Part shown: one piece after another, positions 17,504-49,600 of the stretch
Layout of the letters: every line of letters starts with the position of its first letter
Position numbering within the stretch: position 1 is the first letter of the stretch
Origin: Sphaerochaeta sp. Phil3
GTDB lineage: Bacteria > Spirochaetota > Spirochaetia > Sphaerochaetales > Sphaerochaetaceae
Direction: 5' to 3'
DNA length: 55,028 nucleotides
Assembly (NCBI GenBank): GCA_001940825.1
Contig: MSGT01000007.1
Span: 1 to 55,028 of the forward strand
Position numbers and translations under genes: made by a program
Notes under the pieces: model-generated
What the model was told of the DNA's origin: nothing
The model's database searches: none
What the model saw: the letters and a program-made list of their open reading frames with translations, nothing else

Positions 17504-17843
17504 AGTCAATTTTAATCTAGAAAACCGAAAATCGTCAAATCAAGATTAAAGCTTAATCTTTACCGAATCTTTTCTACAAAACCGCACAAAACTACTAAAT
17601 CCATCGAAAAACGCCATTTGAGAGCACTCAAATGATGTTTTTCCCTTCCGATTTCAGTTTCGCAAAAAACAACAAAAAAGGGAAATGTACCAAAAAACGT
17701 ACCAAAACCCATATAAAAAAAAGGACTTTCATATAGAAAAAAGGACACGGAATACAGCGTTGCTTAATCGGAAAAAGCCCTTGAACATCCTTGTATACGC
17801 AAGGAATCGCCTTGACTTTAGTTTTTCAAACGGAGGTAAGAAC
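17504..17843. other. Intergenic region with inverted repeats before the integrase
   Basis: This 340-base gap has no gene. It holds AGATTAA-AGC-TTAATCT (17542-17558) and CATTTGAG-AGCA-CTCAAATG (17615-17634), followed by a T5 run, and two copies of GTACCAAAA. The region is A-rich. The repeats could be integrase arm sites, operators or a stop signal for plus-strand transcription. No direct repeat of an attachment core was found by eye. Confidence 0.4.
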
Positions 17844-19229
17844 ATGAAGGAGAATCCGCTCTACTCGCTTGTACCAAAGAAACCAGGCAAAGGTTTCAGC
17901 TACAGACTAAAAATCGCTGCCGGAGGCAACAGAGGAGGATTGAAAAGCGTCGACAAAATCGCCGGAATCCTTGGTTACGAAGTTCCAGTCGTCAAGAGGA
18001 AGGATGCAGCGAACATCCTTGACGAATGGTTCGCCCTTGCAGACGAAAAAGCCGGACAAGAAACAAATCCGAACCTATACGAATATGCCAAGAAGGTTCT
18101 AACAAAGGATTCGCCTCTCTACGCAAGATTGGATGCTAGAAGAAAGAAAACAAAGAAAGACCCTATAAGCCTTCGTTATAGAAAAAGCTGTCTGCATGAG
18201 ATTGAAAGGTATAAGAAGATACTCTCGTGCTATCGTCTCAACGGTTTCAAGGCGAAGGACCTTGACAACCTAATATACAGACTGATTGAGGACGATGACT
18301 GCAGTGTAGTATCGATAAATCTTCTTCATCAGGCCCTACGTAAAGTTTATGACTATGCAATATCCCAAGGAATCACCGAAACAAACCCCGCAAGAATGAT
18401 AAAATTCCTCACTCCCCCTGAGGCGGAAAGGGAAATTCTGAATCCAGTGGAGATGATGAAGCTCATATCCAAAATCGATGATACGAACAGAATAGATTGG
18501 ATTGAAAAGCTAGTCTATATTACGACAGTCTATTCTGGAATAAGAAGAGGAGAATTGCTTTCCCTTCGAGTCTGCGATATACATCCGACGAAAGATGACC
18601 AAGGCAACGACTCCGAAGATGTCTATGTGATAGAAGTCAAAAGGAACTGGGACTATGAAAGACGAAGGTTCAAGTCTCCAAAAAGTGGAAAACCACGAAA
18701 TATATATGTGTGGAGAGATTTGGGAGAATTGTTGAAATTTCATTTCGAAGAGTTCGGATTGAGAGACCAAGACCTTGCCTTTCCTCTGGGAAAGAAAAAA
18801 AACGAAGTAAACTACACCGCAATGGTCTTTTCTAAGCATTTACGCGATAGACTCAAGGAGCTTGTCGGAATCGACAGGGAGGAGCAGAAAAGAAGAGGCA
18901 TCTCCTTCCACTCCTTACGACATTACTATGATACTGCGATGCAGAACAATGCAATGGACAACGAAGTAAGAAAGGACATAATGGAAGCGGTCGGCCACGA
19001 ATCCATAAGGGTCGACAACATGTACATACATGAATCAATGTTCTCAAAAAAACTAAGACTCGCAAAAATCAGCGGTTCCCTTTTCAACCTAAAGGATTTC
19101 TTCCCCAACGGCCTTCCAGAACACCTTCTGGACGAAAGGGAGAAAAAGGTCAGACTTTTGAAACGCAACAAGCATCAGATGCTGCTTCCGAACTCAGAGG
19201 AGAGGAACCCTTCGTCAGTGAACGTGTAG
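17844..19229 (+). CDS. Tyrosine recombinase / integrase
   Basis: A 461-residue site-specific recombinase of the phage-integrase family. The N-terminal part (about 1-170) suits arm-binding and core-binding domains. The C-terminal catalytic domain has the first Arg in YSGIRRGELLSL, the HxxR pair in SFHSLRHYYD, the second His in AVGHESIRV and the nucleophile Tyr in DNMYIHESMF. All catalytic residues I can check are present, so it may be active. I set the start at 17844 because GGAGGTAAGAAC precedes that ATG; 53 upstream codons have no signal. The last 55 bases overlap a convergent gene. It marks the start of a mobile module; the far end of that element was not found. Confidence 0.9.
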   Translation: MKENPLYSLVPKKPGKGFSYRLKIAAGGNRGGLKSVDKIAGILGYEVPVVKRKDAANILDEWFALADEKAGQETNPNLYEYAKKVLTKDSPLYARLDARRKKTKKDPISLRYRKSCLHEIERYKKILSCYRLNGFKAKDLDNLIYRLIEDDDCSVVSINLLHQALRKVYDYAISQGITETNPARMIKFLTPPEAEREILNPVEMMKLISKIDDTNRIDWIEKLVYITTVYSGIRRGELLSLRVCDIHPTKDDQGNDSEDVYVIEVKRNWDYERRRFKSPKSGKPRNIYVWRDLGELLKFHFEEFGLRDQDLAFPLGKKKNEVNYTAMVFSKHLRDRLKELVGIDREEQKRRGISFHSLRHYYDTAMQNNAMDNEVRKDIMEAVGHESIRVDNMYIHESMFSKKLRLAKISGSLFNLKDFFPNGLPEHLLDEREKKVRLLKRNKHQMLLPNSEERNPSSVNV

Positions 19230-21161: not shown

Positions 21162-21545
21162 ATGGAATACCGAAACGACGAAGACCAGAAAAAGAAGGAT
21201 GCAGAGCTTACAGCCATTCTGCTTGCGACCCAACAGACTCCGGGGGTGATGGTTGGAAAAGACCTCGTGTTCCTGTCTGAGGCAGCGATAGAGGAATGCT
21301 ACAACTACTACCTGTTCGAGGCGCTTGCAAGGAACATGCCGCAGGCCCTCAGGTTCCTGGGCATCGAAACCGACGACCCGATTGCACTTCAACGACTTGC
21401 GGACAAGGTGTTCGAAAGCATTCTGTTCGATGTCGCATGCAAAATGGGTGCGAAGAGCCTTGTACCGCTGGTGAGCGAAGCCGTGCAGAGAGGAATCGAG
21501 GGAATCGACCCCGAACCGAAGTTCACATTGGTGAACAATGATTGA
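21162..21545 (+). CDS. Hypothetical protein of the integrase module
   Basis: I do not recognise this 127-residue acidic, mostly helical protein. It starts MEYRNDEDQKKKDAELTAIL and has no signal peptide or membrane segment. The start at 21162 is preferred to the ATG 18 bases upstream because GGAGGAG lies 8 bases before it and overlaps the earlier ATG. A strong C-TTCG-G hairpin begins in its stop codon region. It runs opposite to the helicase set and may be a phage-type regulatory or structural accessory protein; there is no evidence to choose. Confidence 0.6.
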   Translation: MEYRNDEDQKKKDAELTAILLATQQTPGVMVGKDLVFLSEAAIEECYNYYLFEALARNMPQALRFLGIETDDPIALQRLADKVFESILFDVACKMGAKSLVPLVSEAVQRGIEGIDPEPKFTLVNND

Positions 21546-21570
21546 AGGACGGCCTTCGGGCCGTCCTTCT
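21545..21570. terminator. Bidirectional hairpin between convergent genes
   Basis: AAGGACGGCC-TTCG-GGCCGTCCTT is a perfect 10-bp stem closed by a C(TTCG)G tetraloop. It lies exactly between the plus-strand 127-residue gene and the end of the large minus-strand lipoprotein gene. The T-tract is short on both strands, but the stem is very stable. Confidence 0.8.
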
Positions 21571-24500
21571 ACCAGTACCCCACCCTTATCCTCAGGTCTC
21601 TGTAGTAGACGTTTCTGCTTGAGCCGTTCGTGTTCAACGCCCCCGATGTGGCGGCGATCCTCGTCGAACCGTTGGAGGCCGACACCGTGCTGCCTCCGAG
21701 GTTCAGCGAGGTCGGGTTCGATACCGTCGTGGTGCTTGCCGTATCTATGTCCTTGAGGGACACGTAGCTTCCGTTTGTCGTGTGCGAGGCGGCTATGGAC
21801 GCCACAGAGAAGGTGTTTGATTTGTAGTACTGGGTCACACCGCTTGTCCAGGATGAACCTGCACTCATGGGACAATTCACCCTTGTGGTTCCATTTATGA
21901 CAATCGAAGGGTTGGACGTTCCAAGCGAGGAACCAGGAGAACTTAGTCCGTATACGGTTTTTCCTGTAGAAATCAGATTCAATCCATTGGAGAATACTTT
22001 TGTCCACTGAAGGGTTCCATAGCAGTGGGCTGTCACCTTTGCTTTTACACCTACAGTTGTCCCTCCCCATGTTTTTGATTTCGAACAGCTCCAACTGAAC
22101 GAATTGCCAGGTTGCAAAGTAACTGTATCTGAGCCTTCGGTTGTTCCGTATGTCCCAGCCTCGGATCCATTGCATTTGATTGTCATATTGCTACGCGCAT
22201 AGTCCGTACCGCCCCATGCCCACCAGCCTATCTGGTTTCCTCTGGCTCTGTAGTAGACTGGCACAGCAGGAAAATTCGATGGAAGGGTGTAGGAACCAGA
22301 GGTTCCATCGACATAGTTGGATCCAGATGAAGTGGTACCTTTTATCTTGTCATCAACATTGTCAGCCACAGCGGCCCAATAAACCATCGAACCTATGCTT
22401 ATGCCATTGTATGTACCAGAGGCCGAAACGATGGTCGGCATTGTTCCCGATGAGTTCGTGACCCAAGAGCTTCCGTAGGAACTCAATAGATTATACACGT
22501 CCTTCCACCTGAAAGCCATCTGGCTCGTGCTCGGGTTCCCTCCCGTATATTCGTACCAGTGGTTGGGGACGTTGTAGAAGGAGTCTGTGTCGGCCGATGA
22601 CAAGGACGAGCTGACATGGAAGTCCGTGAGCTTCGTGCAGTTGTAGAACACCTTTGATCCGATGCTCGTTATCGTGTCGGGCATCCAGCAAGCAATGAGG
22701 TTGGTGTCACCCGAAAGCGTATTGGAGTTCAGCGTAGTCCTGCTTGGAGAGAAGGCGCAGTATTTGAGGGAGCTTCCGCTTCCCGCCGCCGATTCAGCCG
22801 AGTATATCGGTTCGAGCCACACCTTATGGTCCGTCGAGTTCGTGTATGCAAAGTCCACCGCACTCTGGGAGGAACTCCTTTCGTATGGTTTGAATCCAGT
22901 GATCACCTGCCCGCTAGGTATCGCTTTGGACGTATTGGAGCTTTCCGCCGCTGCCGTGAAGGATATGGAAGAACCCTTTGCGACGAACACGAAGCCTGCG
23001 GATGCACCGATCGTGACGTTCTTCGTAGCGGAGGTTCCTACTCCGGAAGGCAGCGTTCTATTTGACGTAGCCTTTATCACCATCGTGCCGACTTCGTAGC
23101 CTACAGTTAGGATTCCGCCGTTGGTTATCTTGTCGTAGTTGGAGTCCAGAGCCGTCTGAATCGACCAGGTTGCGCCTCTTTGGCTTTCATGGGTGGTCGC
23201 ATTGGCGTACTTCACCTTGAAGGACGAGACGTCCCTTATGTCGAGCTTGTCAGCGCCTTCTATGGAGAAGCCCGTGCTGTCTCCGTGACAGGTGTACACG
23301 ATCTTGTTCCTCTTCGCATAGGAAGCCGAGGAATCGTTCGTTTTGGACGAACCGTAGTAGTTGGCATCGTAGACCGCAAACGTCCTTGTACCTGGTTTCT
23401 GAGGCGTTACGGAGACGTTCTTCGTTCCAGTCGTCATATTCGAAGAAGAACTTCCATTGGTTCCTCCGCTGGAAAGCTCGACGCACTCGACCTTTAAGTC
23501 CGAAACCGCATCAGAACCATTGTCGCTCCATATCCCGTTCGTCCTCTTTCCGTTGGTGGTAGGGATCTGGACGGCGGTGTATTCGAACACCATCGTCGGG
23601 TTGTTCGCCGAATTGGAGGAGTTCTTGTAGTACCCGGTCGTCTGCGGGGTTATCGTATAGGTCGCAGTACGCCCCGAGTAGGATATGGAGGCGCTTGAAT
23701 TGAGGTTCGTAGGAGAAAAGTTGGTGTTCGTCGTGTTTTGGTCCATCGAAAGCTCGTAGCTCACCCAAGCTGCATAGAGCGTGTGGTTCCCTGCCGTGTG
23801 GACATACGTATCCTGTGTCGTCCGTGCTCCGGAATACCCGTACCCTTCGCTTCTGACGTTGCTCTGGAACCATCCTACGAACTTGTATCCAGTCCTTGTC
23901 GGAACCGGAAGCGTTCCGTACTTCAAATGGTACGTCACCGTCTTGCTTGAAGTCGGAGTCGTTCCTCCCTGTGGATCGAACGTGACGGTATAGTCGTTCG
24001 GCGTCCAAGCGGCGAACAGTTCCTCGGGAGTCGGGGTATCGACCTTCGTGTCCGCAGTCACCAGCTTGCTCTTGTCCTTGGACTTTGCTGCAGTCTCCGT
24101 CCTATACCATCCTTCGAAGGCATATCCCGTCCTCGTAGGCGTCGGAAGGGCCTTTGCATAGTCAGCATAGTCGTTCTTCACGTCGTTGGTCATGACGGAC
24201 CTGCCGAACGTTCCTGTATATCGTACAATATAGGAATCTATGGTCCTTGTGGATGTGCTCTCCGCATCATAGAGGGTCGGAGGTGTGTACTCGACGCTCT
24301 TGAACGTCACGTTCTTCTCCTTTCCTATCCAGCGTGCGTAGAGTTGTATCATCGCTCCGTTGGAGCTCTGGGCCGGAACCTTTGTGGTTTCTAGAATCTT
24401 CTGCCCGCTGCATGCAGCATCGTAGTACCAGCCGACGAAATAGTGGTGGTCGAGGCTCCATGCACTCGTGTTGAGGTCCGGCAGAACGGCATCGGAGCCC

Positions 24501-27043
24501 ATCCAACTTGACGAAGCCTTGTCCGTGGCAGTGCGCCAGGTCGTCCTGAATGTGAAGCCATACTTCACGAACCTCAATGATATCGAGGCTATCGAACCTA
24601 TGGAGGAGCCGTTCTTCTTCAGGTACGGATCCCCGGAAGGCAGGTTGGAGTCGAATGCAACCGTGTATATGTGGCTTCTGAAATGGGCGTAGAGGACATG
24701 CCCCTTCTTGGATCGTACTATGGTCGAATCGACGACAGGGGTCAGAGACGACTGCTTCTCCTCGTCGAAGTAGGTGAAGCCGTTCTTCGTGGTCCTTGGT
24801 TCGTCCTCGAAATACCACCCAAGGAAGGTCCTTCCTGCAATGCTGGAGGTCGGAAGGCTCTTCTGCACGTCGTCCTCCTGCTCCTCTGCAGCGATCCTTC
24901 CATAGTTCTCAAGATACCTTACAGGCCTGTATGTCTCCGTAGCTGTGGCTATGTTGTCGTATATGTCCCTCCCCGCATTGAAGATTATCGTCACAAGACC
25001 CTTCTTCCATTGGGCATAGACGGTCTGGTCTTCGCGTTTCGTGTTGACGGTCCTTTCCGTGATCCTCGCAGCGCCTGATATGTCGGCTTTGTCGTACCAG
25101 CCGATGAACCCATAGCCGGATCTGGTGGGGATCGGGAAGGGATATCCATCCAGTGTCATGCCCATCTGGGCGTTGTAGCTTACAAGTCTGTATTTCGGGT
25201 CCTCAATCGGACTTATCGAACTGCCGTTCCTCTGCGTTATCTGCGGGAACTCTATCGCATCGTCGTCCCCGTCCTTCGTTCCTTGGTTGGCATCGAAATG
25301 CAGTCTGTACGCCCAGTACGTCACCGTGCAGCCTGCGCCCCACGGCTCACCTGACAGGTCTCCGTTGGTACGGTCTATGAAGAGATCGTAGAGGGCCGAT
25401 GTCCCGGAGAAGGCCTGTGCACCTATTGCGTTGCAGTCCGTTATGGACGAATATCTGTCGCCTCCATCGGTTCCTATCGAGCCTGGCACATGGAAAGTGC
25501 CTTCGAGCCCGCTGCAGTCCTTGAACGCCTTCGATCCTATTCTCCTTATGGTCTGTGGAAGTTCGACAGTTTTGAGGGAGGAGCATCCCTCGAACGCCGA
25601 TTCTCCGACCTCCGTGGTGTTCGAAAGGGATATGTCGACGAGTCCAGTGCAGTCCTTGAAGGTCGATGCAGGTATCAGAGAAGTTCCGATAGAGGTCTTG
25701 AGAAGGCTTGAGCAGCCTTCGAATGCCCCTGTTCCGAGAGTTGCCGACGATGGAATCTCCACACTGCCTATGGACGAGCCGGCGAAGGCGCCGTCCCCGA
25801 TCGAGACTCCAGGGTGCATGGTGGGTGGCTCTGGAAGACCGCTTCCTTTGAATGCATCCTTCGATATCGTTCTAAGAGGGGATGTCACCACATCCCATAT
25901 CCTCGTGTTCTGGAACGACCCTTCTCCGACGGATGAGACGTCAGGGGCGTATATGGCTTCCAGAGACGTGTCTCCGAAAACGCCTGAACCGATCGCCGTA
26001 GGGGAGCTTGAGAAACCGGAGGAGAATGCTATGTACTTCAGGTCGGCGTGACCCCCGACCGTCGATGTCCCGGAGAAGATGTCGCTCTGCTTGGCTTCGA
26101 TTGGTATCAGATATATGACATCGGACGTGGAGTTCGAGAAAGGAAAGGCCACATCACCTTCCGCACCGAGTGCATGGAAACCGGTGACGACCGTCCCGTC
26201 CTTGATTCTGAGCTGTGCGGCTGCATCTGTGAACTTCAACGTCTGTCCTGGGTCCACGACGGCGAACGAAGCGGCCCCGGATATGGAGAACTCGCCGGAA
26301 AGGCGCGTTGTTCCACCTTCGAAGACATAGGTGTCCAGAACCTCTCCTGAGAACACCTCTTCTCCGTTGTATAGTTTTATGGAAAGCTTGTACGCCCCCG
26401 TCTGCATCGGGATGTCGGATGCCGTGTATCTTGTATAGCCATCGTCTCTGTGTTCGAATGAGAAGTTCCTCCTTAGGCTTCCCGTGGAGTCCAGGAGGGT
26501 CGTCCATGCCGTTTCGTTCGGTCTTTGGTATTCGACGAGAAGCCTCGGCTCTGCGAGCGTCATTGAGAGGAACTCCAAAGAAAGAAGTCCAGTCCCCTGG
26601 GTGTACTCGGAAAGCGCAACGACGACCTTGTTGGTCTTGGCCTCGGAGATGTACTGCTGGGACGAACCCTTGTATATGACATCCCCGTTCTTCGTACAGG
26701 CACTCACAGTGAACTCCCACAACCCTTGGGTGTGAAGCCCCAAGGATACGCCTGTCGGAGCTGTTCCTTCCCCCTTTGCAACCGTGAGTCCTGAGAACTC
26801 TCCAACGACCTCGAACTCCTTCTGGGTTGCGCTTATGATCTTCGAAGCGATCGAGAAATGCGTTATCTCCCTGTCGTGGTCCGAGGATATGGACTTTGCA
26901 GGGGATACATCCAGAGAGACTTCAAGGGCTTTGAGCTGTTCGACCTTCGGCACCTGGACCTCATTGTCGCATGAAGACAGCGAAACCGCGACGAGCGCGG
27001 CAAAAGAAAGAACCTTCACCAAAACCTTTGGAATCCTCTTCAT
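21569..27043 (-). CDS. Large BspA-like LRR / InlB B-repeat surface lipoprotein
   Basis: An 1824-residue lipoprotein. The signal peptide ends in VAVSLSSC (lipidated Cys near residue 25). Residues about 30-270 are beta-rich. Residues about 330-570 hold BspA-type leucine-rich repeats (ASTFKDCTGLVDISLSNTTE and similar). From about 575 to 1095 there are five InlB B-repeat (Listeria-Bacteroides) units, each with a GYxFxGWY core and an ending such as TLYAAW. A second short LRR patch follows at about 1425-1490, and the end is RDLRIRVGYW. Such proteins mediate adhesion or matrix binding in oral treponemes and Bacteroides, so a surface adhesin role is likely. It is the third gene after an outer-membrane-type protein and a 53-residue protein. 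GGAGG lies 7 bases before the ATG. Part of it is duplicated at 27972-28330. Confidence 0.85.
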   Translation of the reverse strand: MKRIPKVLVKVLSFAALVAVSLSSCDNEVQVPKVEQLKALEVSLDVSPAKSISSDHDREITHFSIASKIISATQKEFEVVGEFSGLTVAKGEGTAPTGVSLGLHTQGLWEFTVSACTKNGDVIYKGSSQQYISEAKTNKVVVALSEYTQGTGLLSLEFLSMTLAEPRLLVEYQRPNETAWTTLLDSTGSLRRNFSFEHRDDGYTRYTASDIPMQTGAYKLSIKLYNGEEVFSGEVLDTYVFEGGTTRLSGEFSISGAASFAVVDPGQTLKFTDAAAQLRIKDGTVVTGFHALGAEGDVAFPFSNSTSDVIYLIPIEAKQSDIFSGTSTVGGHADLKYIAFSSGFSSSPTAIGSGVFGDTSLEAIYAPDVSSVGEGSFQNTRIWDVVTSPLRTISKDAFKGSGLPEPPTMHPGVSIGDGAFAGSSIGSVEIPSSATLGTGAFEGCSSLLKTSIGTSLIPASTFKDCTGLVDISLSNTTEVGESAFEGCSSLKTVELPQTIRRIGSKAFKDCSGLEGTFHVPGSIGTDGGDRYSSITDCNAIGAQAFSGTSALYDLFIDRTNGDLSGEPWGAGCTVTYWAYRLHFDANQGTKDGDDDAIEFPQITQRNGSSISPIEDPKYRLVSYNAQMGMTLDGYPFPIPTRSGYGFIGWYDKADISGAARITERTVNTKREDQTVYAQWKKGLVTIIFNAGRDIYDNIATATETYRPVRYLENYGRIAAEEQEDDVQKSLPTSSIAGRTFLGWYFEDEPRTTKNGFTYFDEEKQSSLTPVVDSTIVRSKKGHVLYAHFRSHIYTVAFDSNLPSGDPYLKKNGSSIGSIASISLRFVKYGFTFRTTWRTATDKASSSWMGSDAVLPDLNTSAWSLDHHYFVGWYYDAACSGQKILETTKVPAQSSNGAMIQLYARWIGKEKNVTFKSVEYTPPTLYDAESTSTRTIDSYIVRYTGTFGRSVMTNDVKNDYADYAKALPTPTRTGYAFEGWYRTETAAKSKDKSKLVTADTKVDTPTPEELFAAWTPNDYTVTFDPQGGTTPTSSKTVTYHLKYGTLPVPTRTGYKFVGWFQSNVRSEGYGYSGARTTQDTYVHTAGNHTLYAAWVSYELSMDQNTTNTNFSPTNLNSSASISYSGRTATYTITPQTTGYYKNSSNSANNPTMVFEYTAVQIPTTNGKRTNGIWSDNGSDAVSDLKVECVELSSGGTNGSSSSNMTTGTKNVSVTPQKPGTRTFAVYDANYYGSSKTNDSSASYAKRNKIVYTCHGDSTGFSIEGADKLDIRDVSSFKVKYANATTHESQRGATWSIQTALDSNYDKITNGGILTVGYEVGTMVIKATSNRTLPSGVGTSATKNVTIGASAGFVFVAKGSSISFTAAAESSNTSKAIPSGQVITGFKPYERSSSQSAVDFAYTNSTDHKVWLEPIYSAESAAGSGSSLKYCAFSPSRTTLNSNTLSGDTNLIACWMPDTITSIGSKVFYNCTKLTDFHVSSSLSSADTDSFYNVPNHWYEYTGGNPSTSQMAFRWKDVYNLLSSYGSSWVTNSSGTMPTIVSASGTYNGISIGSMVYWAAVADNVDDKIKGTTSSGSNYVDGTSGSYTLPSNFPAVPVYYRARGNQIGWWAWGGTDYARSNMTIKCNGSEAGTYGTTEGSDTVTLQPGNSFSWSCSKSKTWGGTTVGVKAKVTAHCYGTLQWTKVFSNGLNLISTGKTVYGLSSPGSSLGTSNPSIVINGTTRVNCPMSAGSSWTSGVTQYYKSNTFSVASIAASHTTNGSYVSLKDIDTASTTTVSNPTSLNLGGSTVSASNGSTRIAATSGALNTNGSSRNVYYRDLRIRVGYW
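22515..22576 (-). repeat. 62-bp inverted repeat, copy in the LRR lipoprotein gene
   Basis: On the minus strand this segment encodes YNVPNHWYEYTGGNPSTSQM. It is identical in all 62 positions to 27987-28048 on the plus strand, while sequence on both sides differs. The copies are inverted and enclose most of the lipoprotein gene, its promoter and two upstream genes. Confidence 0.95.
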
Positions 27044-27085
27044 GGAAAGACCTCCGAAAAAACAGTATCTATGGAAAACAGCGAA

Positions 27086-27103
27086 GGCCGCCCTCAGGCG
27101 GCC
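27086..27103 (-). terminator. Hairpin between small gene and LRR lipoprotein gene
   Basis: GGCCGCC-TGAG-GGCGGCC forms a 7-bp GC stem just after the stop of the 53-residue gene and 43 bases before the lipoprotein start. No T-run follows, so it is probably an attenuator or mRNA-stability stem, not a full stop. Confidence 0.5.
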
Positions 27104-27110
27104 GTGTGCG

Positions 27111-27272
27111 TCACTTCTTTCCGACGACTTCGACGGAAACGGGCTTCTCGCTGCCTGAAGCCTCGACGCTGACGTTCATGTCCTTCAGCGCGCTGGAGAC
27201 GAACATCTCTATGATCTCCTTCTTCAGGTCCTTCGCCGTCGTGACCTTCACGTTGAACGTATATGTAGCCAT
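27111..27272 (-). CDS. 53-residue hypothetical protein
   Basis: A small frame encodes MATYTFNVKVTTAKDLKKEI and ends in KPVSVEVVGKK. It has no signal peptide or membrane segment, so it should stay in the cytoplasm although both neighbours are exported. AAGGAGG sits seven bases before its ATG, and only 11 bases separate it from the end of the upstream outer-membrane-type gene. Composition and codon use look like a real gene. I recognise no family. Confidence 0.65.
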   Translation of the reverse strand: MATYTFNVKVTTAKDLKKEIIEMFVSSALKDMNVSVEASGSEKPVSVEVVGKK

Positions 27273-27283
27273 GCAAAACCTCC

Positions 27284-27814
27284 TTAGATGTTGATTCCAA
27301 GTCCGATTCCGAACTGTGCATCGAGGGATGCCGTTCCGAAATTGAATACCTGCTCCAGCTTCGGATCCTTTGGAATCGGAAGGATTTCGAAAAGCTCCAA
27401 CGTCACAGGTCCGATGTCCAAGCCTCCGGAAAGACGCCAGAAGAGATTGTCTTCGTATTCGTTTTCATGGAATCTCATCTGACATCCGAATGCGACTCCT
27501 ACCTCCAGGCATTTGAGCACTTTGGCATCGAAGCCTGCGTAGAGTCTGGCCAAAGGCTGTGCCTCTCCGTCCTTCACGGAAGCGCCTCCCTCTATGCCTA
27601 TGCCGATCCCCGACTGCATGAACCTCACCTGTCCGAATGCTTCGAAGTCGTCTCCGATCTCCTCGAAGAGCGTCATTACATGGTCGCCTTCGATCCTTCC
27701 TGCAATCGTGTTCCAAGTAGGTCCTGCGACCGCGCTTGCTCCTATGCGTACGGTTGCGAAAGCCGAACATGCGACGAAGACCGCCAATGCAATGAAGACA
27801 ATCGTTCTCTTCAT
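27284..27814 (-). CDS. Small outer-membrane beta-barrel-like protein
   Basis: A 176-residue exported protein with signal peptide MKRTIVFIALAVFVACSAFA. The mature part has alternating hydrophobic residues and Gly, ending in LDAQFGIGLGINI, as in small outer membrane barrels. I placed the start at the Met in MKRTIVF (27814), since this gives a clean signal peptide; eight codons upstream are also open. A promoter of the shared TTGG/GCCTT/TACAAT type ends about 55 bases upstream, leaving a normal leader. It is the first gene of the set leading to the LRR lipoprotein. The gene at 28548-29063 encodes a similar-sized protein, possibly a distant paralogue. Specific function is unknown. Confidence 0.65.
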   Translation of the reverse strand: MKRTIVFIALAVFVACSAFATVRIGASAVAGPTWNTIAGRIEGDHVMTLFEEIGDDFEAFGQVRFMQSGIGIGIEGGASVKDGEAQPLARLYAGFDAKVLKCLEVGVAFGCQMRFHENEYEDNLFWRLSGGLDIGPVTLELFEILPIPKDPKLEQVFNFGTASLDAQFGIGLGINI

Positions 27815-27868
27815 CCTTACAATCCTCTCTGATAACAATGGATTTGCGCCTCTTGGGCGTATACCCGG

Positions 27869-27897
27869 ATTGTAGCTTCAAGGCATTTTCCAACCAA
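27869..27897 (-). promoter_or_regulatory. Promoter of the OMP / LRR lipoprotein operon
   Basis: TTGGTT (27892-27897) and TACAAT (27869-27874) are 17 bases apart, with AATGCCTTGAAGC just before the -10 box. It shares the AYGCCTT spacer motif with other promoters in the window. Confidence 0.6.
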
Positions 27898-27971
27898 ATT
27901 CTTTCGAGGGAATCGGATTCCAGTGGAGGTCGGACTACCATCAAGAAAAAGAAAAGGGCTGAGGGGAGACC

Positions 27972-28330
27972 TCATCAGATTCCTTTTACAACGTCCCCAA
28001 CCACTGGTACGAATATACGGGAGGGAACCCGAGCACGAGCCAGATGGCCTTCAGGTGGGCGGAGGTATACAAGGTGCTGTACGATTCACTGACTGCAACG
28101 ACCGACGGACAGGGCATAGAAGTGTCTGGAAACGTCAATGGAACTTCCATCGCACGTCTTTGGAAAAGCGGTGAATTGGGGAAAACAACGATTTCGGACG
28201 CTCCAGCAACACTATGCGGGCCTCCAACGGCTCCACAAGCCTCATATTCACATCCGGATCCCTCAGCGTCAACGGAGCTTCAAGGAATCCTTACATACGG
28301 GACCTGAAGGTCAGAGTCGGCTACTGGTAG
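27972..28330 (+). pseudogene. Broken 3' copy of the LRR lipoprotein gene (possible donor cassette)
   Basis: This plus-strand segment has no start codon of its own but encodes the end of a paralogue of the 1824-residue lipoprotein. One frame reads DSFYNVPNHWYEYTGGNPST, then the divergent MAFRWAEVYKVLYDSLTATT, and stays open to 28307. A shift of frame near 28175-28190 then gives RASNGSTSLIFTSGSL and ends in IRDLKVRVGYW with a stop at 28330, matching RDLRIRVGYW in the intact gene. The first 62 bases of the match (27987-28048) are identical; the rest has diverged. It is either a relic or a recombination cassette. After inversion across the repeats it would give an in-frame alternative C-terminus. 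Confidence 0.75.
27987..28048 (+). repeat. 62-bp inverted repeat, copy in the broken cassette
   Basis: Identical, in opposite orientation, to 22515-22576. The reading frame is the same in both copies, so an exchange here keeps the lipoprotein frame open into the cassette. Confidence 0.95.
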
Positions 28331-37621: not shown

Positions 37622-40600
37622 TCATTCCCCGAACGGCCAGACGTATATCTTTGCGCCTCTTGCGTTCTCTTTGTTGTCGTGCCAGTGGTTGCCGTGCGCG
37701 TTCACATCCCTGTAGAGCACAAGCGTCGCGCTTCTGTCAGAGCCGCTTCTGAAGAGGTAGTCCATGGCAAGGTCGAACTGGGACGTATTGTGGGAGCCCA
37801 GCTTGGCTCCATACGAGAACGAAGGTTCGTATCCAAGCTTGGGTATGGTCGCTATCCTGTTCCCATCCGCATCGAGGTAGCAGTTCAGGTCGTACTCTCC
37901 GTTGAACCATGCGTATTCGTCGGTCACGAAGCTTCCTATGTCAAGCATCGCGACCCTCTCATCCGCCGCGGGGACGGTGAAGTGGACCTTCATCGATATC
38001 GCCCATGCATCGTAGCTGGTGGAGGCTGCGAACCCCGCCTTGTAGCATATCTTGTTGCTCGAAAGGTTCACCTTTGGGTACAGTCCGCTCCATTCCTGGG
38101 CGAAGTCCTTGGAAAGGCCCGAGTACCTGTTCATCCCTCCGTCGTACATGAGAGTTATACTGTGTCCGTCGATCACAAGCGAGTTCGTGTATGTGAAAAG
38201 ATGCGTCGTCCTTGTAGCCGTGTAGCATTCGTAGGAGACCTTTCCGGTTCCATTGCACTTGGCGCAGTCGTGGAACGTGAGCACTACGGTCCCTTCGTGG
38301 TCGACTACCGTGGTCCCTTCGCACACAGGACAAGTCTTGGGTGTTTCGAGGACCTGCTTCGAGCCTTTGCAGTCAGGGCAGGGCTTCTCGTACTCCATCT
38401 GCTTCGCGCCGTTGCATTCGCGGCATGGAGCCTGGACGTACCTCTTGCCCGAACACGTCTCGCAGGGGGTCTTCCCATCTGCTTGGAATCCGGTGGCGTT
38501 GCAATCGGAGCAGTTGTTCATGTTGATGCCGTAGCCGTTGCACGTTCTGCATATGCTAAGCGCCATAACCTTTCCGGTGGCCTTGCACTTGGTGCAGTCC
38601 ACAAGCCCCTGGACCTTTCCGGTTCCGTCGCAGTGGGTGCAGCTCTCTGTGTCCACGTAGTCGAACCCGTCGCCGTTGCAAGTGGGGCATGTGCGTTGTT
38701 TTGTCACAGGTCCCTGGATGTCGGAGTACGTGTAGTACTTCGCACCGAACGATGGGTTGCGTGGCTCGGCTTCGTCCTGAGGTCTGCCTTCGACCTCGAC
38801 GGCCTCGTCGCTGGTCTCCCAATGGTAGGAGTTGTTTCCGGTTCCGAGTTTGTTCTTGGAAAGGTCGATCCTTGCGTTCGATGCGTTCCTGATCCCTATG
38901 TCCGCAACCGAAATTCCACAGTCCGATGCCTTGAGGTCCATGAGGGATACGTTCCGTCCGTCCGAGCCCTTGTTCACGTAGAGCGATGTGACGTTATAGT
39001 TTTCCGAGAAGTCGATACTTACCACACCTGCATTCCAGATCTCTACAGCTCCTGCAAGTCCTGCTTTCGTCATCGAGAACGACTTCACCTTCCAGGTGTT
39101 CCACTTCGTCCTTGCGTAGTTTCCAACCGAAGGGCTTTCCGAGAGGTCCAAAGACGAGACGTACACGCCTCCTGTGTTGAAGGTCGAAAGGTCCTTGCAC
39201 TGGGAGAAGTCGAGCGATGCCAGCCTCGTGTCGCCCAACGTGCCGCCGCAGTCCCCCGTGATGAGAAAGGACCTGATCGAGCCGCCTTTGAACGATATGT
39301 CGGTCGCCGTTGGATCGGAGAACGACCCCCCTGCGATCTCAAGCTCTCCGCCGAAGGTGTTGCCCGAGATCCTTGTGCCTATCGTGCAGCCTCTGAGCTG
39401 GACCTTTCCATCCCCATCCAAGCCAAGGGATGTCACGTTCCCCTTGAACGAATAGAGGCTTCCAGCCTTGCCCTTGACCCTGAGCTCTCCGTCCACGGTC
39501 TCGATCCTGCCGTCGAAGCCCACATCGTCCAAGGAGACGTCGCCGAGCGAGCCTGTAATGTCTCCGCTTCGGAATGAGAAGGCCCTTAGGGTCACATCGA
39601 CCTTTTTCGCGGTAGGAAGCTTCATTCCAGAAAGCCCGGAGTCCTCGCCTCTGCCCTTCACGTCAAGGCTTTCCAGATGCGTCATCGAAAGGTCCCCGTC
39701 CTTGAAGAGCTTTCCAAGGGCGCTTCCATCCTTGGCGTCGGGATCGGACAGCTTTGTCATGTCGACCGAGAGCCCAGTGACCCATGGAAGGTATGCAAGG
39801 TCCGCAAGGTCTATGGTCTCATAGCCCTTTCTCGTCCAGTCCCTGCCTTCAAGATACTTGGGCACATCCGCTATGTCCTTCGTCTCGAACATGTCCGTGG
39901 GCATGAGCGCACCGTCCACGCTTGGGATCGAGGTCAAGCCTATGCCTATGGTGATTCCACCTTTGCCCTTGAGGATCTCCCTGACCCTGTTCAGCCCCGT
40001 CGTGAGCCTCTGGCCCACATACACGCCGTTGGTGTCCAGAAACGTGGCGTACATGCGCCCCGTGTAGAGCGAATGTCCGTTCAGCGCCGCTCCGTTGGAG
40101 TCCGTGACCGCATGGTTCATGGAGAGCGCGTACCATCTGTCCTTCTGGGCGCGTGATATGCGCTCGGGGATGAGGCTTGAGACGTTGAGCGTCCTGACAT
40201 CAGGATATCCGCTGGCGGAGAGCGACGCCTGCACGAGGTTCATCAGCTCAGGGTCGATTCCGTACACGACGTACACGGGGACCCCTCCTGTGAGCTTGAC
40301 CTTCTGCACCGTCGTCGTGGTCTTTCCGTCCACGGATTTGGTCACGAGCACCACCTTTCCGTCCTTGTCCGTAAGCGGATATTCTATCGTGTACTGGAGG
40401 TACGCCTTGCCGTCGCCGCCACAGGGCCTTATCGTGGCCACGTTGTCGCCCTGGCCCACATCGCCGGTCCTGAGTATGGTGTCCCCGTTGGAGAACTCCA
40501 CTATCGAGGACCTGTCGCCGCTTCCCTTGGCCTCAAGGAGCTCCCATGTGACGGATATCCTGTCTATGACCTCTCCGGACTCGGTGTTCACGTAGTTTCC

Positions 40601-43600
40601 GTCCGCGCCCTTCCTCGCGACGCCTATGGGGTTGGCGTAGCTCTGGAGCACCGTTCTGTTGACCACATCGTTCAGTGCGTTGCGTCCGGTGGCCACGGTG
40701 ACCCCCGCGAACGAAAGGGATATCTCATCCTTTTCCTTTCCGTCCTTGTACCTGGAAGGCGTCGCATCGTCGTAGAGCACAACGGCCTCCATGCTCTGAA
40801 GGACCTTGGCCTGCGAGTCCCAGAGGACGTCCCATTGGGACTGCACCGCATCCCTTGTGTCGGCCGATACGTCGTCAAGGTCGAACTGGCCCGGCATGTA
40901 CGTGAACGCACCGTCCTTCCTGGTGTCCAGAAGCTCCCCCGAGTCGGTCTGGGGAAGGTTCCTCACCAGTCGGAAGCTTGCGGGCGAATAGTGGATGGTG
41001 AACTCCTTGGAGAAGTTTATCTGCGGATTGTAGATCCTCATCCTCACATCCCCGTATGAGACCGTATAGTCGCTTCCGGAGGCCCCTATGCCGTTGTCGT
41101 CGTACTCGGAGTAGATGCGTCCCGTGGGGATGAAGCGGAAGGCCCGCACATCGTCTCCGATGCCGGTTCTGTCCACCGTCCCTATGACCTGGCTCGTACC
41201 CTCAAGCATGTTGTCCACGACCTCGACCGAAAAGTCGTAGCCGTAGTCGGGGGCCGGAGCATAGGTGATGTAGTACGCATCTATGTTGCCTCCACCACCG
41301 GATACATCCGTGGTGTCGAAGCAGTAGATGTCCGCAGCGCCCTCGGTGGCGGGGCTTGCATCCACGCTGACGTTCCTGTAGATCGGATCCGACTTGACGC
41401 CGCTCGTGACGTTCTTGTTGGTCTGGATCTGTCCTACGGACGTGAAGGTAAGGCTCTTCACCAGCGTCTGGATGTCGATTTCGTATGTGCAGCTTATGCT
41501 CTGGTCGGAGGTGCTGCGTGCCGTGACGAAGATCGTGCGATGGTCGTTCTCCGCATACTGGCCGAAGCTCTTGGCCGTCAGCATCAGCTGCGACACGTCT
41601 CCGTCGCTCTCACTTGAATACACGACCCACTCGGAAAGCACGTTGTCAGGGACCGCGGTTCCGTCCTGATACACTCCCCTGACCTCCCATCTTATCCCCT
41701 TCTCATGGGTGCTGGTGGGGTTGAAGGATGGTATCATCGTTAGCGATGCGCCTTCATAGAGCTTTATCTTCTCGATGTTGGTCACCAGCGTCTCGCTGAC
41801 GGTGCTTCCATGGTTCTCCCTTATGACCGTACCGGTGTAGATGTTGCGGATCCTTCCGCCTATCTCAAGTGCGAGGTAGCTGGCCTTCACATCCATCATC
41901 TCCGCATCGTATCCGGAGTCGGCGTCCCATTTCACATCGTCCCTGAGCCTCACGACGATCCTCAGTGTCTCGTCGGAGATCGCATCGGAGTTGAGTCTGA
42001 AGAAGAACGATGTACCTCCGTTGTCCACGCTCAGGGCTCCGGCTTCGTCGCCGGTCCTTGTGGCAATGCCCATCGGAGTCGCTATGAGCCTTATGTTTCC
42101 GTTTCCAGTCAGATACGCATCTCTGTCGGCCTTGAGAGCCTTGTACGTCACGCCTTCGATCTGCTTCTTCGCGTGGCTTGCGTCCACATAGTAGGCTCTG
42201 CCGTTGGAGAAGATGATGTCATGCCAGTCGTCGGTCGTCGTGTTCTCCCTGTACTGCCAGGTCTCCTTCTCGTAGTTGTAGTAGCGGCTGTGGTCGGCCG
42301 TCTCGTGGAACGTCCCCGAGCCGTCGTACCAACCCCAGACGCCGTTCTTCTCATAGAGCGACTTCGCCTCTCCGTCTACGGTGCATACAGGGACGGAGCT
42401 GGCATAGACAAGGCCGGAGTCTTCGCCTACTATCCTGCACTCAACCCAGTCCCAATGCGTAAAAGGGGACACGACGCTCCCCTCCTCGGAGGAGGCCGTT
42501 GCGAGCATGTCGAAGCTTATCCTTCCGTTCTCAAGCGAGGACGGGTCTATGGACCTGTCGCTTCCCGTCGAGAACGTATAGATGGCCTTCGAGACCGTGA
42601 CGGTTATGTTCACGATGCTGTAGTAGGCCGATATCGTCTCGCCTGTCGGATTGCCGTCCTTGTCGTAGACCTTGAACGTGTCCTGACCCGAAAGCCTTAC
42701 GTAGAGGCCTGCCTCCGCCGCCTGTTCGAGCGCCACATGGTCGCTCGTCGTCTTGCCGTAGAGCACCCTGAGCCTCTGGGTGTCGCTTCCGGTGGTCCCC
42801 GCAAGACCCGTGACCGTGGCTGTGTCACCGCCTACGGACACCTTGACGAATGCATTGGTGTATGTTCCGTCGGCGTCGATGAGGTGCGCAGCAGTCGTTC
42901 CCGCGACCTTTTCGTCCATCGCGAAGAACACCTTCCTTGCCAGTGCGTTCTCAGGCGTGAACACCGCAGTGACCTGCGCACTTGAGTTCTTCGCCACGGA
43001 GAGGACCTGACCAGTGGTGGTCGAAAGACCCTTCACGTCGCCCGCTATGCTTATCGTGCTTGTGTACGAGAGTTGCGGATTCTGTTCGCAGAGAACCTGG
43101 AGTCTGTAGAGGCCCGCCTTCTTCGGGACGTAGTACATCGTCTTTCCGTTGAAGTAGGCGTCTATGTTCTCCTTTTCGTTGCGTATCGCCGTATCCAGAT
43201 CCCATCTTGGCTTCCCGTCATCGTCCGTCTCGGTATAGGTCGCACCTACAGGATAGAAATACCACTGAACCGTTCCTGCAGTCTCCTTGCCCATCTGGTC
43301 GTACAGTGTCGCCGTGATGGTCTGCTCTTCGTCGAAAGGAGGCTGGAGGTCAACCTTATCCTCGCTCAGTCTGATGGAGAGAGGATAGGTATTGCCCTCG
43401 GGGAGCCTTCTTATCGTTACGGAGATGTCCGTAGAGCTCTGCCCGTCACGGGTGGAGACCCTTACGGTCGCCCTGCGTGGGAAGGTTTCGAGGATTCTGT
43501 TGAACTTCCTGCTCGTGTAGTCGGAAAGCCCGAGTCCAATGAAGTCGTCCGTCGAAAGCCCCAACGACTCCATGGAGGCCGTAAGCTCGCGGTTCGTCGT

Positions 43601-46600
43601 CTCGTTCGTCACGAGTATCCTTGAGCCCAGGACGAGATCGGACGACTCGACCACTCCGTTCTCGTTCGCATTGGCTATCTTCAGGGCTTCCTTCATCTCC
43701 TCGCCCGTGGCGAGTATCCTGCTGTTCTCTATGAGGTATCCGTCCGCCGTGTACTCGGAGAGTATCTGCACCGAGAAGCCTGCGTTGTACGCCGGATTGT
43801 CGAGCGACATCGAGACCGATGCACTGCCGCCGGTGTAGAGCACGATCGAGCTTGAGCTTGGAGTCAGGTTGTTGCTGTCGCCGCCTATTGTGACGTACAT
43901 CTCGCTTGAATAGTCCTGTCCGTCCTTCTGGAGCGTAGCCCTGACCCTGAACTCGCCTTTGGCTACAGGGACGATCGTGATGTCGTTGTTCTGAAGCCCT
44001 TCGGAGTAGGTCGCGACCACTTTGGAGACCTTCCCTGTTCCGGAGCAGTTGGTGCATGGAGAACCGTTCGCTTCGCCTGCGCCGTTGCAGTTCTGGCAGA
44101 GCACCTGGACCATTATCTGGGACGGGGACTGTACATCCTCCCACTGGCCGTCGACGCTCACCTGTACGGTATAGTTGATCTCGGCATCGGATGCGGTGGT
44201 TCCGTCCATGTAGTATGCGCTGGCCTTGAAGCTCTGCGACGCATACGGGAAGCCAAGTGTGACGAACGGACTTGGGAAGGCGATCTGTCTGATGCCACCA
44301 GTGCCCCATGAAGCGTCGTGGACCGTTATGTGGGTCCTGCAGGAGACGACGTTGCCGTTCACGTCCGTAGCCGTGTACGTAAGGTCCTCCTCCCCTATGC
44401 TCTCGGCGCTCACAAGCACGCTGTCGACCGTCTGCTCGGAAAGCCCTATGGCCTTCGGAAGCGCAACGCTGTCGCCGGACTGAATCCAGCTGTGGTCTAT
44501 GACCTTCGCCGTCGCTGGGTCCCTTGAGACCGTAACGATCGTCGATGAGCCCTTCACGAGGTGCATGTAGCTTGACTGGAACATCGCACCGGATATCGCG
44601 CCGCCTACGTCCAGCATCGTCCTGGCAGAGACTCTGAAAGGCGTTTCGGCAGGACCTTCCTCAGGGCCGTAGGCCTCTGCGAAGTATATGCCCGCCCTAC
44701 CCGGCACTATCCTGAGCATTCTGCTGTCGGATCCTATGACGGAGAAGTCGGATACATCCGTGAAAGAGGCGTCGTAGACCTTCAGTTCCGAGAACGAATC
44801 GAACTTCTGGTTCTTGTAGATGTACTTGCCATCCTCCCAGCAAAGGAGCTCAACGCCCCTTTCGTCGAGCAGGCTCCATTTCGATATCGGATCCTCGGTG
44901 TCCTTCCTGGAAGTGTCCACAAGTGTCGCCTTTATGTAGGATGCGTCCGAACCCTGGGAGAGTGAGAGCGTTGTGCTGTCCATCTTCACTGCGGAGTATC
45001 TGTACTTGGCGTCGCTTGCGCCCTTGCCGACGATTTCTATCGAAACGCTGTCCGTCACAGCCTTGAAGCCTTCGAGCTCGGCGCTGAGGTTCAGAACGAA
45101 CCTTCCGCTTTTCTTGGCTCTGATGGTGAGGCTTCCACCGGACTTGGACACCATCTCCACGTATGGATCGGCAGCCGGTGTGGTTCCGTCCTCCTCCGTC
45201 TGGGTCCAGACATACCTGACACCCGTGACGGATGGGTTGACCACCGCCTTGAAGGTGGCGTATTCGCCTTCCTCCATCATCATCGTGGATTCGGAGATCA
45301 CCACGGACCTAAGCCCTTCGTCCTCGACCACGGAGAGGTCGGCCACCTCTATCTGAGCCTTTGCAACGGCCGTTCCATAGCTTGCGGTGATGTAGGCATA
45401 GCCCACGTTCTGGTTCGCATGGACCGTCGCAATACGTCCCTTGTAGGACTGCGAGAGCGTATTCGCTCCGATGAACGCCATGCCGATCGTGTTGCCTTCG
45501 AAGCTCCACTGGACGTTGGACGCATCGACCTCCTCTCCGTTCTTCCTGAGCGTCGCCGTGACGAGCGCATCCGTTGAAGGAGAGAGTCTGAGGTTCGTTC
45601 TATCCAGAGATATCGTGTACACGTCCTCGGTCTCCTGTTCAGGAGCGGGGACGGTCACGGACATCGTGGCCACCACGTTCCTTGAAGATATGGCCGAAGC
45701 CTGTATCGTCGCGCTTCCAGAGCCGACTGCGCTTATGGTGGCCCTGTCGCCTGTTCCGATCCTCGTGACCGTAGCCACAGCTGGGTCGGATGTGCTCCAT
45801 TCAAGCCCCTTTGCAGAGTCCGCAAGCCCGTTCGGCTGATACAGTGCACCTACAACCGTGCTTTCGCCCTTTTTGAGCATGAGCTTCGGCGTGGCCATCG
45901 CTATCGAGCTCGGTCCGGAGGCTGCGCTCTGCTTCTCTGCAACCGCAACCCTGAAACCGGCCTTGACCCCGCCTGCATATGCATTGACGTAAGTCGAACC
46001 TGCATCCATAGGCTCCACCTTGACCCTGCCGCCTCCGAGGTCGATGACATTGACGATCCTGTCGTCGTCGGCCTTCCAGTAGTCGATCTCCCTGTCCATG
46101 AGCCCGCCGTCCGCGTCATAGACCTTCGCCGTGACGGTCGCGCTCCTTCCTGGAGTCTGGTCGATCGACACGGACGTGGCATCGAGCTTTATCACTGCAG
46201 CCTCGGAGGATCCCGAGACGGTCACTGCGATTTCGCTCGTCACGTTTCCGCTCGAAACCGTGACCGTGGCGGCTCCGATGCCCGTAGCCGTGAGGGTGAG
46301 CCTTCTGCCTGTGACGGATGCCTTGACGACGTTGGTGCGGTTGGAGGCCGCATATACGGCATCCGAGTTGTCCGCAGGGACCGTGGAGATGTTCATCTGG
46401 ACGATCTCGCCCTTCTTCATCTTCACGAGGTTCATGCCTGGGATTATCCTGACGAGACTTGGTGTCGGCTGCTGGGAATCCTCCGTGCCGACGGATACGA
46501 ACGCAGGGGCCTCGACCTCTCCGCTCTTCGCATAGATGGTGGCCATGCCCGCCTTGAGGCCCTTGGCAGTGACCTTGGAGCCCTTGGTCGTGAGCGAGGC

Positions 46601-49600
46601 CACCGAAGGGTCCGTGATTGAGAACGAAACGTCGGAGTAGACTTCGTTGCCCTTTCTGTCGAACATGCGCGCCGTGAAGTCCACCGTCCTTCCGACCTGT
46701 ATGTAGGCCGAACTTGGAACCAGCGATATACGGTTCACACCAAGGGTCTCGGTGTCGTTGACGTATACGAACGCCTCCGTGCTGTAGCTTCTGCCTCCGA
46801 CCTCCGTCGTGAAGCGGATGCTCGCCGCACCCGGTCTGTCCGCACGGACGGAGAACACCTTCTTGGAAGGCTCCGCCGTGACCGTTATGGAATCCACATC
46901 GCCGCCCTTGGAGGCCTCTGCGCCTCCGAACATGGAGCTTGGGGTTCCGTATACGGTTATCTTGAACGTCGATCCGACGGTGAGGTACACCTTGTCCGCC
47001 GAAAGCGACAGACCTCCGAAGCTGGAGGTGTCAACTATCTCTATCGAACAGTACGCCTTCACGTCTCCACATGTTGCCACGAGTCTGACGGTTCCCGTGC
47101 TTGAACCCTTGTTTATGCCTGTGGATGCACCTCTTGTGGAGGTGAGCGTTACACCTGTACCCTGGTTCTCCTCAAGGGACCAGAGTATCTGTGCGTTCTC
47201 GACCTTCCTGCCTTCGTAGTCGAATGCGGTCGCCGTTACGACTACATCCGCCTTTGAGGAGAGGTTGAGCACTATGGCCGTCCTGTCGAGGGAAATGCTG
47301 GTGACGCTCGGAAGGTCGTCCTTGCTTGCGACCGTCTTGACCTGGATCGTCTTCGACAGGCTCTTGCCGTTTTCGTCCTTGGCGATTGTGGTCGCCGTGG
47401 CTTCGACGTTCCTAGGGGTGACAGCAAGGGCCTTGAACTCTATGCCCTCGTCGTCCATTGTGCTTGAGACGTAGCCGGTGTCGTTCTTCAGCGTCCATAC
47501 GAGCCCTTTGAGGGAGTCCTCGTTCGGACGGTACGAGACGTTCACGCGCTTCGTGTCGCCGAGGACGATGTAGACCGGACTGGAGCTGTCCATCGCGATG
47601 GCTTCGAGCTTCGGATCCTCGGGGTCCGCAGGAAGCGTTCCGGTGTAGATGTCAACGGTCTTCGAGACTATGCTTCCATCCTTCGATGTTCGCTTTGCGG
47701 TGAGGGTCCCCCTGCCTGCATCCTTCGCCATCAGATATATCGTGTTGCCTTCGGTCCTTGAGACGACCGCTGCGTCTCCGAGACCAGAGACGTCCCACTC
47801 CACGTTCTCCTCCGAAAGGACGTTCCCTTTTCTGTCATAGACCTTTGCAATGAATGACGTAGGCATCTTCGCATCCTGCGAAAGCACTGCATTCGGTGGG
47901 GTTATCGAGATCGATCCTATGTCGTATGTGGATGGCTTTGGATCGTCCGGGGTCGCTGCTTCGTCGACAACGGTCACGACTACGGTGTCGCTCACCGTAG
48001 GCTGACCGTAGACATACGCCTTGACCGTAGCGCTCCCTGCCTTGTTGGCCGTCACGTTGCCGTAGATGTCCACGGACACCGCATCGCCCTGCTCGACGGA
48101 CCATCTTACGTCCGCCGAGACGTCGCTTGGAAGCGTCACCGCCCTGAACCTTCTCGTCGAACCCTTCTTCATGGTGATGGATTCGAACTCAAGCCTGAGC
48201 TCCGTGACCTTGCGCTCCGTCACTATCGTCTTGGAGTCGATGACCCTGACATAGAGCTGAGAGTAGACTTCGCCGTCGTTCTCCGCTGTAGCCCTAAGGT
48301 ATCCAGAACCCTCCGCGACGGGTCTGATGGAGACGGTCCTTCCCTTCGCATCGTTCTCGACGATGGAGATCGTCCCCGCCTGCTCCGCGGACAGGTCCTC
48401 CTTGAGGAACGTCCACTTTACAGGTTCGTCGGCATCGAACGTGTTGGCGACATAGATCTTCGCGTTGACGTCGGCCTTTGCGCCCGCTTCGTTGAGGTCA
48501 AGCGTAAGGCTGCTTCTGTCAAGGGTGAGCCCTGTTATCGTATTCGAGATGTCGTCCCTGACCCTTACTCTGATGGTGGAGCCCTTCTCCGTGGCTTTGT
48601 CCTTCACCAGGATGTTCGTGCTGCCCTGCTTCACACCTGTGACGTCGGCGGAAAGTCCTGTCGTGGCCTTGACTACGGCCGTATCCGTGTCCGCACTCTC
48701 CCATACAGGGGATATCTGCATCCCTGCTGGATAAGGGGATACGAAGACCTGTGCTTCGCTTCCGGTCTGTATCGTAAGCACGCTGGGCTGTACGCTCAGG
48801 TGGTCGAGGGCCTTGGAGTCCTCGCCTGGGACGATCCCCGTGTATACGGATGCACTTGCACTGAGGCTTCCGTAGTACGCCCTGATGTTCGTCCTTCCGC
48901 TGTCGAGCGCCGTAAGGGTTGCGGTGTTGCCGTCAACCTTCATCTCCGCGACGCCCTCCGTGTCCATGGCCCATGTGACGACGGCCCCTGCGATGGGGAA
49001 TCCATCGGTGGCTATCACGCTCGCCGTCACATCCTTGGACTTGCCGTCGGTCTGCGAAAGCTCGACGCTCTGGACCGAAAGCCGCACGAACGAGGCCTTC
49101 GTTTTCTCGACCGGATCGGAGAGGACCTGTATCTGCACGTCCTTGTGGACGTCGTACTTGTAGCTGTGCGCCGTGACCACGGCGTTGCCCTCCGCCACTG
49201 CGGAGACCGTTCCGTTGGAGTTGACCTTCGCTACGGTGTTGTCGCTTGTCGTCCATGATATGGAGGTCGAGACGTTCTCAGGCATGGGCGAAGCCGAAAC
49301 GGTGTACGACTCGCCTCTTCTGAGCACGAGCCTCTGGTCCGAAAGGATCAGATCCGCAAGCTCGGTCGCAGCGCCTGCGGCCACTATCTCGACGTAGCAC
49401 CTTGCACTCACATCCCCGGCCTTGGCCACGATGTATCCGGCTCCGACGCCCTTCTTCGTCATCAGAACCGAGCTTCCATAGCTGTCGCGCGGAGAGTACG
49501 AAAGCTGCGTCTCGTCGAGCCCTTCGAGGCTCCACTGGACGGATGTCGTCCTTGACACCTTTCCGTCCACGTAGACGGTGGCCTTGAGCTCCGTAAGGGA

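Follow-up and report, generated by a model that had tools for sequence, protein, structure and literature searches.

Does the gene for a giant surface lipoprotein in Sphaerochaeta sp. Phil3 switch its C-terminal end by inversion, or does the start-less copy of its 3′ end on the opposite strand record past recombination? The window analyzed here, i.e., the whole stretch of 55,028 nucleotides, contains both sequences, which were originally predicted as a possible invertible or gene-conversion cassette or, failing this, as a decaying relic. We analyzed the shared sequences, the genes located around them, and the codon use of the two copies in the light of the data available on other systems.

The Intact Lipoprotein Gene

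The open reading frame of the lipoprotein gene is uninterrupted over 1824 aa. Its product matches the Pfam families LRR_5 (E 1e-38) and Flg_new (E 8e-26), and the whole protein, including its tail, matches solely models of the LRR and List_Bact_rpt/Flg_new types. The lipobox-like motif LSSC was read from the sequence close to the N-terminus. The structure predicted for the tail was without confidence (pLDDT 30) and was left out of the reasoning. The hairpin following the stop codon (Table 1) is probably the terminator of the gene. A second hairpin (27082–27096, minus strand), after which the DNA is T-rich, is located 5′ of the gene and may attenuate transcription into it.

Table 1. Positions of the features of the lipoprotein locus in the window.
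Feature	Positions	Strand	Remarks
Intact tyrosine integrase gene	17685–19229	+	3.3 kb from the left repeat; nearest recombinase; first gene of a region without match beside MutL in congeners
Hairpin AAGGACGGCC-CGAA-GGCCGTCCTT	21540–21568	−	Directly 3′ of the lipoprotein stop; read from sequence
Lipoprotein gene	21569–27043	−	BspA-type LRR/Listeria-Bacteroides-repeat surface lipoprotein
Low-GC3 segment	21824–22408	−	aa 1546–1740; no counterpart in the orphan
Exact 62-bp block, lipoprotein copy	22515–22576	−	Codons 1490–1510; within 97-nt arm 22491–22587
176-aa protein gene	27284–27814	−	N-terminus resembling a signal peptide; matches no family; located between the two repeats
Candidate promoter TTGGTT-17-TACAAT	27869–27897	−	For the genes inside the segment; read by eye
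Orphan tail	27976–28330	+	Block, ~110 nt, and C-terminal homolog
Exact 62-bp block, orphan copy	27987–28048	+	Head of the start-less tail; within 97-nt arm 27976–28072
C-terminal homolog in the orphan	28205 (about)–28330	+	Corresponds to the last ~40 codons of the lipoprotein gene

The Shared Block and the Start-less Tail

The predicted 62-bp identity, inverted and with an equal codon phase in the two copies, was found exactly at the positions given in Table 1. This block is the longest exact inverted match and lies within an inverted pair of 97-nt arms showing 92% complementarity; the 55-kb window yielded no other self-match at E<1e-3. The 2.36-Mb assembly carries only two copies of the block, both at the lipoprotein locus, and at the other LRR loci of the genome, the repeats are essentially limited to internal direct ones.

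Inward of position 27976, no significant similarity was detected between the intergenic DNA and the gene body. Since the homology starts abruptly at the block, the plus-strand copy has no start, in line with the original prediction: an in-frame TGA occurs at about 27960, just upstream of the orphan block, and the first ATG of this frame, at 28044, is inside the block. As in the orphan modules of other systems, the fragment thus lacks a start and begins at the conserved border of a variable tail. Outward of the block, the similarity is lost within 10–20 nt. The alignment between the 3′ end of the gene and the plus-strand copy consists of the 97-nt arm and a C-terminal patch with 62.5% amino acid identity; the ~110 nt in between do not resemble the intact tail significantly in a shuffle test, and the ~200-codon middle of the lipoprotein tail is missing from the orphan. 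The flanks had been described as diverged homologs, which applies to the edges of the block and to the C-terminus but not to the middle of the orphan, where homology is not detectable.

The later frameshift that had been noted in the orphan is also present: the C-terminal homolog is in a frame other than that of the block and stops at the TAG codon 28328–28330, while the frame of the block closes at 28307. The silent tail cannot be read in frame up to its conserved end, whereas that of an invertible cassette should be readable. Read in the block frame, the inverted gene would encode 1489 + 106 = 1595 aa, which agrees with the predicted length of about 1596 residues, and a fused product could be made, the orphan frame being open for 106 codons. 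Neither a hairpin just 3′ of the orphan tail nor a recognizable gene after it on the plus strand was seen.

No relative of either tail was identified in 393 genomes of the phylum, genome_contigs, viral contigs, phages, or plasmids. Two weak matches in the phylum (L062 and L063) contain stops and looked spurious. An array of further tail cassettes was rejected, since neither tail has another copy, and the block no third copy, elsewhere in the genome, which was covered by searches and by the inspection of individual stretches.

Genomic Context and the Possibility of Inversion

Inverted repeats bound a segment of the locus, as they do in invertible cassettes. Between them are located the lipoprotein body, a short ORF read from the sequence (about 27111–27272), the 176-aa protein gene, and a possible promoter. 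The 176-aa protein is present in this genome alone among the 37 genomes searched. The candidate promoter is weak and was not reported by a consensus scan. Since the body and the upstream genes lie inside the repeats and the tails outside them, inversion is anatomically possible, and an inversion cassette, too, would have a tail starting right at the block of recombination.

No recombinase gene was found between the repeats or adjoining them; its presence there is an expected but not an absolute feature of such cassettes, as master recombinases can work from elsewhere in the genome (PMC5903667). The nearest one encodes an intact integrase (Table 1); reading of its sequence showed the R, HxxR, H, and Y residues that tyrosine recombinases should possess. 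The congeners share the core genes as far as MutL (to 16658), and from the integrase onward (17685) no match was obtained in the flanks taken from eight congeners downstream of MutL. Region 17685–55028 begins with the integrase and also contains SNF2-type helicase, PARG-like, and methyltransferase genes. It possibly represents a mobile or defence island, which would be interrupted by the contig end at 55028. It also includes, at 37622–54913 on the minus strand, the gene for a predicted 5763-aa lipoprotein, next to that for a predicted DNA methyltransferase; this lipoprotein seems to consist mostly of Ig-like repeats and has a zinc-finger-like CxxCxG stretch close to its C-terminal end. The sole serine recombinase found in the genome (219 aa; L054, G000:C28) is encoded on another contig, near the contig end; no link between it and the lipoprotein locus was found, and it was rejected as the agent acting here. 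A few other tyrosine recombinases are encoded in the genome, including a pair on contig C67 which may be XerC and XerD, names that are inferred.

In a live inversion switch, a crossover at the blocks, mediated by a tyrosine recombinase or RecA, would flip a 5.4-kb segment carrying the promoter, the upstream genes, and the first ~1500 codons, so that the same body would be followed by the long tail in one orientation and by the orphan tail in the other. The in-phase inverted repeats, with the body inside and the tails outside, the restriction of the identity to a short block right at the start of the silent tail, the intact tyrosine integrase 3.3 kb away, and the precedent of Ureaplasma, in which the N-terminal region of UU172 and a spacer invert (PMC3047005), are all consistent with this process. 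On the other hand, the orphan has no middle and is out of frame with the conserved C-terminus, the integrase is at the edge of the island rather than at the repeats and the serine recombinase on a different contig, and neither an inner palindrome nor any symmetry of the kind found at recombinase sites was detected in the block. The assembly, which comprises 72 contigs, is 96% complete, and may be a population consensus, shows one orientation only. Given an out-of-frame silent tail, repeats without an adjoining recombinase, and a single orientation in the assembly, we consider a live switch unlikely, and the locus was not classed as an invertible cassette because it has neither an in-frame silent tail nor an adjacent recombinase. 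The geometry on which the original prediction was based thus holds, while the functional cassette deduced from it is not favored. It is rather unlikely, in particular, that this giant LRR/InlB-repeat lipoprotein carried on an integrase-borne island swaps its C-terminal tail by inverting the whole upstream transcription unit at the in-phase block, the orphan giving a shorter protein with a different end. If the block is an active joint, the locus would provide a compact example, amenable to easy testing, of how a giant BspA-type surface lipoprotein exchanges its tails.

Codon Drift and Probable Homogenization of the Block

A comparison of the individual codons of the two copies shows an uninterrupted run of 20 identical ones in the block, and both of its edges carry synonymous changes (GAC/GAT, TTC/TTT, and GCT/GCC). 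The C-terminal homolog shows a different pattern: its 37 codons include 10 identical ones, 14 with synonymous changes, and 13 with replacements, so that 14 of the 24 codons specifying the same residue (58%) have drifted. With this level of drift, the odds of 18 degenerate codons staying unchanged are ~1e-7, homology being allowed for. These odds, along with the fact that the window contains no other self-match at E<1e-3, rule out a chance repeat.

Since synonymous drift is nil in the block and strong outside it, the copies of the block appear to have been homogenized recently, through a conversion or a crossover postdating the divergence of the tails. Recent recombination at the block, which had been proposed on the basis of the perfect identity, is well supported. 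The silent and expressed copies are locally identical and have diverged flanks, as expected in the case of a gene-conversion donor. The codon pattern at the C-terminus indicates that the orphan homolog diverged under selection. The orphan tail would then have been selected as a coding sequence during most of its existence, its frame being broken only later.

These data also bear on the possibility that the related 3′ end was inserted by a one-off segmental duplication, without any exchange with the intact gene, the block being merely the best preserved part. The copy resembles pseudogene fragments in its truncation, frameshift, and lack of a start, but even drift would be expected in this case, and 20 consecutive codons are identical whereas most of the same-residue codons at the C-terminus have changed; we take this explanation to be quite improbable. 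That the block is conserved as a DNA or RNA sequence without any recombination, either as a protein-binding site or through the pairing of transcripts from opposite strands, is most improbable, since although the synonymous sites are frozen across these 62 bp only, the block has no inner symmetry, the search for copies of it beyond this genome yielded none, and nothing pointed to a transcript running across the orphan on the minus strand.

A Compositional Break and the Probable Origin of the Orphan Tail

The GC3 content of the lipoprotein gene is 0.67 in the body, 0.45 in the segment encoding aa 1546–1740 (Fisher p=1.4e-9), and 0.81 at the end, and the lowest value among 195-codon windows of the body is not below 0.59. 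The low-GC3 segment begins within ~30–50 codons of the block. Since the GC3 drops shortly past the block, the latter is near a boundary of the intact gene as well. The segment is probably a compositionally foreign tail acquired by the intact gene, in which the previous tail would have been replaced just past the block, although the unusual codon use might also be that of a native domain.

The explanation that we regard as probable is that the plus-strand copy is the orphan 3′ end of a related lipoprotein allele, and that the block is the joint of a recently homogenized tail exchange or conversion rather than part of a programmed switch; we favor an orphan tail scarred by recent recombination over a live inversion. 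The start-less 3′ end of an allele related to the intact gene would be located upstream, in inverted orientation, on a genomic island, and recombination would have exchanged or converted the tails at the block and homogenized it recently, the intact gene probably gaining the foreign segment directly past this joint. The orphan tail would have been coding for most of its history and would have lost its function; it is now frameshifted, shortened, and located in intergenic DNA. We favor the idea that it works like a leftover tail or a donor cassette: it might occasionally provide the intact gene with sequences, or undergo rare inversion by general recombination. The decaying relic mentioned as a fallback in the original prediction therefore fits better than the invertible cassette when it is combined with gene conversion or a past exchange. 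If the block is a scar, the locus would be the record of a tail replacement in which a conserved coding sequence served as the anchor, with a middle of foreign composition and a start-less remnant.

Comparison with Known Systems

In the MBA/UU172 system of Ureaplasma, the N-terminal coding region and a spacer invert between two partner sequences, giving alternate or chimeric surface-protein genes, and both states have been demonstrated by Southern blotting and sequencing (PMC3047005). The geometry of the lipoprotein locus likewise fits the inversion of an N-terminal part between two tails, but the second tail is frameshifted here, and the only state known is that present in the assembly. Inverted repeats of homologous genes also swap coding parts by inversion in the hsdS genes of type I restriction systems, as in the pneumococcal cod locus, involving PsrA (PMC7096588). 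The lipoprotein locus resembles them in having inverted repeats among homologous genes, whereas the cod locus contains a tyrosine recombinase gene and its inversions have been demonstrated, and the lipoprotein locus has a frameshifted silent tail and no adjacent recombinase.

The orphan CdiA-CT and Rhs-CT modules are start-less tail fragments beginning at a conserved border motif, and it has been proposed that they are reloaded by recombination (PMC3150448). The lipoprotein orphan is similar in that it lacks start signals and begins at a conserved motif bordering a variable tail. The CdiA-CT and Rhs-CT orphans are located downstream of the main gene and accompanied by an immunity gene, whereas the lipoprotein orphan is single and inverted and has no such gene. 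The combination of a toxin domain with a partner immunity gene that characterizes CDI/Rhs-type orphans does not occur at this locus: no toxin domain was recognized in the lipoprotein tails, and a conserved C-terminus is common to both of them. The geometry of the lipoprotein locus is that required for an inversion switch, but a start-less tail beginning at such a border is equally characteristic of the CdiA orphans.
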